Positions 7,799-10,798 of a stretch of 64,000 nt of DNA are shown one piece after another. The notes under the pieces are model-generated. The model was not told the origin of the DNA. It was given only the letters and a program-made list of their open reading frames with translations, and made no database searches. How positions within the stretch are numbered: the stretch's first letter is position 1; each line of letters opens with the position of its first letter. The position numbers and the translations under genes were made by a program. The stretch comes from an uncultured Alphaproteobacteria bacterium (GTDB taxonomy: Bacteria; Pseudomonadota; Alphaproteobacteria; Micavibrionales; Micavibrionaceae). The stretch is from contig CALHAW010000023.1 in the NCBI GenBank assembly GCA_937934135.1, forward strand, positions 1-64,000, read 5' to 3'.

Positions 7799-8200
7799 TT
7801 AAGCGGCATTGAGGTCGAGTGCTTTGGGTCTGTCTTTTATTTGAATTTGCTTTGCTTGATTTGCTTGATGTAATTGCTTTGCAATGACATCCATGACATC
7901 AAATCTGGAATTAATCATATTGGTTGCTTTATAACTCCATTTTCCTGCGGCATCACATAACATAATTGTTGCGTCATATGCTGTATCGACGCTCATTTTT
8001 TTCTGCGCTTGCTTTAAAATATCTTTCTTATCTTGCCCATCTGTAAGTTTAATAACGAAGCTATGATTAAGTTTTGGATCACCCATAATCATCAGCGGAT
8101 CATGCGCGGGTGTTTTAAGTAATACATATATTTTTGCGACGATATTTAAATTAATATCATTTACGTTGGCTGCTTTAAATTTTGTTTTAAGATTGATCAT
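7799..8200 (-). CDS. Hypothetical protein (133 aa)
   Basis: Intact ORF in the polA/DUF1223 gap; no family recognised. Confidence 0.55.
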   Translation of the reverse strand: MINLKTKFKAANVNDINLNIVAKIYVLLKTPAHDPLMIMGDPKLNHSFVIKLTDGQDKKDILKQAQKKMSVDTAYDATIMLCDAAGKWSYKATNMINSRFDVMDVIAKQLHQANQAKQIQIKDRPKALDLNAA

Positions 8201-9558: not shown

Positions 9559-10626
9559 TTACCCTAAGGCGGCGTGAAATTTTCCTGTTTTGTTCAAACG
9601 ACCGATACGTTCCCCACGTTGTAATGTGATCTCACTTAATGACTCAGATGGAATATTCCTGCCGTATTCATTCATAAGGTGAACAAGCTTAGTATTAAAC
9701 TCATATGGAGTTTTTTGAAGATTTTTTTGTAAATCAATAAAGTCTAAGTTCCCAATAAGGTGCCTAGAAATAAACAGGGCATCTGCGTCAATATCACCGG
9801 AAATATGAAGCCCTTTTAATTTTTCTCTAAGGTTGAAAAGGCCGTTCTTAAAATTGCTATCATTGGTGTTTATTATTTTTAAAAAATGTGAAGAAGATAC
9901 TTTACCTCCATCTTTTGCCAATGCGATATATGCGCGCGCTATATTCATTTCCATGTTTGATAATGTGGCGCCATTGCCCCAAAAACTGAAGGTTTTGTTG
10001 TTTAAATCAAGTTGAATAGGACCATAATTAATTATCTCTCGGTGCGAAATACCATTGTTCTTTGATTTATTTAAGTTTGAATTTTGTATCAGCAATGATT
10101 TTTTAAAGCTTTCTAAATTTTCTAATCTTCCTAATTCGATAGTTGGTTTTGTTCTAATTCGACTAAGGCTTGAAAGATTTAAATCAGCATCGTTTTTCTG
10201 AAGAATGTCTGCAAACTGCTTGTTAAAATGGAATGGTCGTTTTTCTAATCTTTTTTCTATTTCTTGGTAATCCAAATTCCCTCTCAAAATATCTGTAAGA
10301 ATGAAAGAACTGGCAGTAACGTCATCAATAATTTTTATATTCTCTAGCTTTTTCCTAAACTTTGAAAACTGGGCGTTAAAACAATTTTCAGTTTTAATGC
10401 CCAATAGTTCCATGAGGGTTTTTTTAGAAAAATAAGCAGATGGGCTTCCAATAAATATGATCGATAAATTAATTTGGGTTGGAGTGAGTTTTACAGCGCC
10501 AAATCTATCGACACAAAACATCCCAGCCTGCCTGTCAATGCTGACCGCTCCGTACTTATGCGCGTTAAAATTAGATGTGGTGCTGATAATGGCCTCTTCA
10601 GTATTTTTTATTTTAAGTAAGGTAAA
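9559..10626 (-). CDS. Tandem OmpR/PhoB-like winged-helix protein without receiver domain; possible pseudogene or non-canonical start
   Basis: Two aligned repeats: HKYGAVSIDRQAGMFCVDRFGAVKLTPTQ... and INYGPIQLDLNNKTFSFWGNGATLSNME.... Homology extends upstream of the first ATG (10521) to about 10560; in-frame TAA at 10627-10629, no ATG/GTG/TTG between. Confidence 0.6.
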   Translation of the reverse strand, partial: FTLLKIKNTEEAIISTTSNFNAHKYGAVSIDRQAGMFCVDRFGAVKLTPTQINLSIIFIGSPSAYFSKKTLMELLGIKTENCFNAQFSKFRKKLENIKIIDDVTASSFILTDILRGNLDYQEIEKRLEKRPFHFNKQFADILQKNDADLNLSSLSRIRTKPTIELGRLENLESFKKSLLIQNSNLNKSKNNGISHREIINYGPIQLDLNNKTFSFWGNGATLSNMEMNIARAYIALAKDGGKVSSSHFLKIINTNDSNFKNGLFNLREKLKGLHISGDIDADALFISRHLIGNLDFIDLQKNLQKTPYEFNTKLVHLMNEYGRNIPSESLSEITLQRGERIGRLNKTGKFHAALG

Positions 10627-10798
10627 TTAAAATATGATTTGTATTATGTCAATATAGATCATATTTTCCGCTTGATTTATTGGCGCTAAACCCGTTATAA
10701 CCCCTTTACCGATGGACATTCTGGCGATATTTGGCTGCCTCGATTGTCTAAATTTTAACAAAAACCTCAATATTTACGGGGCTTTGAAGGAGATAGAA

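Follow-up and report, generated by a model that had tools for sequence, protein, structure and literature searches.

A gene on the minus strand of the analyzed window (64,000 nucleotides of contig CALHAW010000023.1) carries two copies of a divergent OmpR/PhoB-type winged helix in one chain, each followed by a tail of its own of ~60 amino acids. The encoded protein has no receiver domain, and the gene shares its locus and a promoter element with single-copy homologues in the same genus. We lean toward the interpretation that this product is a receiver-free regulator in which the covalently linked pair of domains mimics a head-to-tail dimer.

Results

A receiver-free gene built from two tandem repeats

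The reading frame is open on the minus strand from 10626 to 9559, with the start of the gene at 10587 or 10560. The coordinates given in an initial annotation, made from the sequence alone, are correct, and the strand, which it left unstated, is minus. The parts of the gene are as follows.

9559..10587, minus strand: tandem OmpR-type winged-helix gene, 342 amino acids if started at ATC; defined by the open frame and by a start placed through homology to three syntenic homologues
10282..10560, minus strand: winged helix 1 (YGAVSID…LTPTQ…FRKKLENI…ILR); from AF2/Foldseek of a homologue, a profile comparison with regular response regulators and 42% identity of repeat 1 to the homologue in genome G004
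10093..10281, minus strand: C-terminal extension 1 (GNLDYQEIEKRLEKRPFHFN…GRLENLESFKKSL); no library match
10033..10092, minus strand: Lys/Asn-rich linker between the repeats; from the sequence and low AF2 confidence
9754..10032, minus strand: winged helix 2 (INYGPIQLD…LSNMEMN…LREKLKGL…HLI); from repeat comparison, full-length AF2 and profile
9562..9753, minus strand: C-terminal extension 2 (GNLDFIDLQKNLQKTPYEFN…GRLNKTGKFHAALG); from sequence comparison

The claim that two tandem repeats align along their length was borne out by comparison of the two halves. Repeats 1 and 2 share 39 identities over 156 positions (25%; BLASTP E 3e-16, phmmer E 4e-16), and their Smith-Waterman score is 144 versus 32 ± 5.5 in 2000 shuffles (Z = 20). 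Furthermore, a profile of repeat 1 and two homologues, from which repeat 2 itself had been left out, retrieves repeat 2 from this genome with an E-value of 5.8e-21. Each half comprises ~155 amino acids, made up of a winged-helix-like part of about 93 residues and the tail. The repeat boundaries and the GNLDxxxxxxxLxxxPxxFN motif quoted in the initial annotation are present in the sequence, and the similarity runs on past the FN of this motif (…SLS.I…GRL…F…L), an extension that had been overlooked. The tail of each repeat is marked by the signatures GNLD…P-x-x-FN and SLS-x-I…GRL, and its description as unfamiliar holds for all of the libraries searched. In a tree of five domains, repeat 1 is not sister to repeat 2 (bootstrap 73). 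Because this tree is too weak to date the duplication, the event may be old and followed by losses, or it may be recent with a fast-evolving repeat 2.

The open frame holds no receiver, in agreement with the initial annotation, and the neighboring genes (a phosphoribosyltransferase gene, rpmI, rplT and pheS) do not include a histidine kinase partner. The gene therefore lacks both the N-terminal phospho-receiver and the adjacent histidine kinase of a two-component response regulator. Inspection of the translation by eye revealed no hydrophobic stretch of membrane length. The gene is indeed AT-rich relative to its neighbors, having a GC content of 34% versus about 44% in the flanking genes and 42% in the window. 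A 133-amino-acid open reading frame near polA (window positions 7799-8200, minus strand) is likewise AT-rich (34% GC). A phage or plasmid origin was considered and rejected, since no tblastn match was found in phage or plasmid records, none in viral contigs, and no PHROG was hit.

Distribution within the genus

We searched 142 genomes from the order along with a sample of 385 from the class, and full-length relatives turned up in the same genus only. The search for single-copy and tandem homologues proposed in the initial annotation located single-copy genes at the same place and in the same orientation, beside or opposite rpmI-rplT, in three congeners: G004 (CALHAR010000008.1) and G006 (CALDTV010000016.1), both uncultured Alphaproteobacteria MAGs, and G001. 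In G001 the copy has diverged strongly (E 5e-7 with the profile, for one target), and its assignment rests partly on synteny. The tandem arrangement occurs only in the genome studied here. Thus, three of the eight congeners with a readable locus have a single-copy homologue there, and the other five have neither the gene nor a remnant at this locus; an additional genome, G008, in which the locus was not found, lies outside these eight. A scan of GTDB contigs yielded no match with a single-protein query and only two congeners with an alignment-based query.

In each of two sister pairs, G004/G005 and G001/G009, the gene is present in one member only; a tree built from four genes of the locus supports these pairs at 100 and 88. 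Because sister genomes differ in this way, we regard it as a patchy, genus-restricted accessory gene that has probably been lost repeatedly. The congeners without it retain the rpmI-rplT operon, and therefore its divergent position relative to these genes is no evidence that it regulates them. The homologues share with the tandem gene the domain, the tail (clear in G004 and G006), the locus, the orientation and the promoter element, but differ in having one copy, a canonical start codon and the usual codon-position GC pattern.

A noncanonical start codon behind an intact promoter element

Alignment with the homologues places the start of the gene at an ATC codon, and the full frame has no canonical start codon in this genome, an absence overlooked in the initial annotation. 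The features of this region are as follows.

10644..10652, minus strand: TTGACATAA, a genus −35 element conserved upstream of all four homologues; from alignment and motif counts
10593..10598, minus strand: AAGAGG, which resembles a Shine-Dalgarno sequence, at 5 nt from the ATC; from the sequence
10585..10587, minus strand: ATC where the homologues have ATG, ATG and GTG, with an ATT just 5′ of it (10588-10590); from alignment of the four 5′ ends
10519..10521, minus strand: first in-frame ATG, an unlikely start from which winged helix 1 would lack its first two predicted strands and which lies 131 nt after the −35 element

A conserved (N/D/A)F(D/N) follows five codons past the ATG of G004, the ATG of G001, the GTG of G006 and the ATC of the window. 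The sequence ATTGACATAA precedes the aligned start by 55-65 nt in all four genes, and the ATC lies 65 nt after the intact −35 element. This genome contains 33 occurrences of ATTGACATAA versus 0 for the reversed control, and 47 of TTGACATAA versus 7, with an open reading frame starting 34-76 nt downstream at 26 of the 29 other TTGACATAA sites inspected. The idea that ATTGACATAA might be a specific autoregulatory site was ruled out, as it is an ordinary −35 element of the genus. Genus-wide, TTGACATAA is strongly over-represented upstream of open reading frame starts, and it can readily serve to mark promoters in this uncultured genus.

An in-frame ATG farther upstream (10662) precedes the −35 element and is followed by a stop codon. 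Because neither this ATG nor the downstream one is suitable, either translation begins at AUC or the adjacent AUU, or this is a decaying gene whose start is missing or wrongly assembled. Starts of this kind do exist, as exemplified by the AUU of infC.

It is conceivable, although we consider it the lesser possibility, that the window holds a decaying copy whose start mutated to ATC and which, under relaxed selection, makes little or no functional protein, while its relatives keep the gene intact. The ATG or GTG that all three homologues have at this position, the distance from the −35 element to the first in-frame ATG (131 nt versus the typical 34-76 nt) and the absence of the gene from sister species, implying repeated loss, would all fit this account. 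Likewise, the GC content by codon position is flattened (0.37/0.34/0.32 in repeat 1 versus 0.50/0.41/0.25 in G004 and 0.52/0.40/0.25 in G006), which hints at relaxed selection. Nevertheless, the 343-codon frame is free of stops, which, given its base composition, would happen by chance with a probability of about 1.6e-7, and second codon positions are conserved relative to third positions (0.66 versus 0.37 for repeat 1 and G004; 0.60 versus 0.34 for repeats 1 and 2). The open frame and these conserved positions argue for selection until recently. Moreover, the promoter element and Shine-Dalgarno sequence are intact, initiation at AUU or AUC has precedent, and a single-base error in the draft assembly could account for the ATC.

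Fold and predicted DNA binding

For AF2 we used an alignment of five homologous domains with the single-copy G004 homologue as first sequence. The resulting model has strands at residues 9-12, 15-18, 23-26 and 29-32 and helices at 35-49, 57-64 and 69-84, with pLDDT values of about 82-92 in these elements; this is a ββββ-HHH order, with the C-terminal hairpin modeled only in part. All 50 of the listed Foldseek matches in the PDB are winged helices of the OmpR/PhoB/ToxR/CadC/GlnR type (probability 0.99-1.00), with E-values that are moderate, 1.5e-3 at best among the matches listed. Modeling of the entire protein gave a poor result (pLDDT 53), in which each half has, at low confidence, strands and then three helices in the same order; the structural matches to this model are also of the OmpR type. 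Structure prediction, the check on which the initial annotation had staked its proposal, thus returned a winged-helix fold, and repeat symmetry is present.

Profile-profile comparison (hhalign) of the family with five ordinary OmpR-type domains of the genus gave a score of 40.7 (88%, E 2.9e-6), whereas 20 column-shuffled control profiles reached at most 15.4. The family profiles reach canonical response regulators across the winged-helix columns only, and matches outside the genus, in searches of the order and class, fall mainly on the winged helix of an ordinary response regulator or of a response regulator-like protein. The proposed likeness to OmpR/PhoB winged helices is therefore supported by AF2/Foldseek, the profile-profile score and the genome searches alike; on the strength of prediction, we regard the winged-helix assignment as well established, and the OmpR/PhoB subtype is very likely.

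The third helix reads FNAQFSKFRKKL in repeat 1, FKARLSKLRAKL in G004 and FKSRLSQFRQRL in G006, all of which keep basic recognition-helix residues and the LR-x-K-L end. In repeat 2 the helix is FKNGLFNLREKL, in which the basic positions ahead of LR.KL are gone and mainly LR-x-K-L is kept. The usual T-V-R-G-x-G-Y wing is replaced by V-x-A-x-S-x-x-L-S-D (VTASSFxLSDRLxG in the alignments). In ToxR, wing residues are required for DNA binding, and K102 has been likened to R219 of PhoB (PMC6733452). Judging from the recognition-helix residues and the wing, repeat 1 is likely to bind DNA, and for repeat 2 this is uncertain.

These features also bear on an alternative to which we give less weight than to decay, namely that the fold was kept but DNA binding was lost, and that the protein works through contacts with other proteins, for example by partnering or antagonizing CtrA or another OmpR-family regulator. 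The atypical wing, the weakened basic surface of repeat 2 and of the G001 homologue (whose winged helix is acidic, pI 4.7), a conserved tail that matches no library and the very rapid divergence seen inside a single genus (25-42%) would suit such a role. However, the basic recognition helix persists in repeat 1, G004 and G006, and the pI of their winged helices is 8.7-10.1 versus 5.3-9.2 in five ordinary domains of the genus.

No match above threshold was obtained in Pfam, NCBIfam or PHROGs, the PF00486 curated cut-off was not reached, and a PDB sequence search gave nothing significant. Weak PDB profile matches include two PhoB/OmpR-type winged helices, 5dcl and 6zwt (E 1-2). Matches to Imm12, LBP_M, MvaT and DARPin were below threshold and were taken as chance. 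Although these empty library searches are what would be expected if the domains were not winged helices and the YGxLxLD…LTPxE likeness were coincidental, that account is highly improbable given that AF2 and Foldseek agree, that the profile-profile score exceeds its shuffled controls, and that genome searches land on response-regulator winged helices.

Discussion

Domains of the OmpR/PhoB family bind direct repeats as head-to-tail pairs (PMC3960148, PMC6733452). If the tandem protein is a regulator of the kind that we favor, its two linked domains would sit head-to-tail on adjacent half-sites of a direct repeat, and the covalent link would replace the phosphorylation-driven dimerization of ordinary response regulators. 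Repeat 1, with its basic recognition-helix positions, would make most of the base contacts, and repeat 2 would mainly hold the second half-site or pair with repeat 1. Output would then be set by the amount of protein, which is probably low here because translation would start at ATC or the adjacent ATT. Counting against a DNA-binding regulator are the moderate Foldseek E-values, the poor full-length model, the replaced wing, the loss of basic residues in repeat 2, the acidic G001 homologue and the lack of a canonical start.

The domain shares with PF00486 (Trans_reg_C) the ββββ-ααα order followed by a hairpin, the LT/LS opening of helix 1 and the LR-x-K-L that closes the recognition helix. It differs in giving no Pfam match, in the replaced TVRGxGY wing, in the missing receiver, in the two copies per chain and in the conserved tails of ~60 amino acids. 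ToxR, CadC and HilA combine one winged helix with a transmembrane/periplasmic or TPR-type part. They resemble the tandem protein in having an OmpR-type winged helix without a receiver, and CadC and ToxR are among the top Foldseek matches listed; in contrast, the tandem protein has a second winged helix and no recognized transmembrane/periplasmic or TPR-type part. ChxR and HP1043 are atypical response regulators with degenerate receivers and phosphorylation-independent OmpR-type DNA binding (PMC3960148, PMC8345958), but they keep a receiver-like domain, whereas the tandem protein has none. Our literature search, incomplete in its coverage, found nothing relevant on receiver-free tandem OmpR winged helices.

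Other proteins of the genus also carry unusual arrangements of OmpR-type winged helices. A 513-amino-acid protein of G001 (C45, L077:3699-5240, minus strand) has a degenerate N-terminal segment and a string of four such domains (PF00486 E 5.7e-20), whose pairwise comparisons reach Z values of up to 14.5, and no whole-length homologue was found in 58 relatives. In G006 (C16, L076:1845-3212, plus strand), a CtrA-like response regulator with receiver and winged helix bears, after a long linker, a second, weaker C-terminal PF00486 match. A receiver-free protein of 236 amino acids in G003 (C5, L078:1920-2630, plus strand) matches PF00486 weakly at one place and may contain a further winged helix in degenerate form.

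A broader proposal, which we offer as speculation and rate below each of the readings above except that of a coincidental likeness, is that the genus repeatedly builds receiver-poor, linked OmpR-type oligomers that read repeat arrays without phosphorylation, with the AUC/AUU start serving here as a built-in throttle.

The domain class itself is well known; what is new is its tandem, receiver-free form with an unnamed tail in a genus-restricted gene. The finding names a small family unrecognized by any of the libraries searched, and it opens no new class of system. The single-copy genes of G004 and G006 and the tandem gene described here form a natural before-and-after pair for considering a covalent tandem as a constitutive dimer on direct repeats. 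If the favored interpretation is true, duplication within one chain would free an OmpR-type DNA-binding domain from phosphorylation control.
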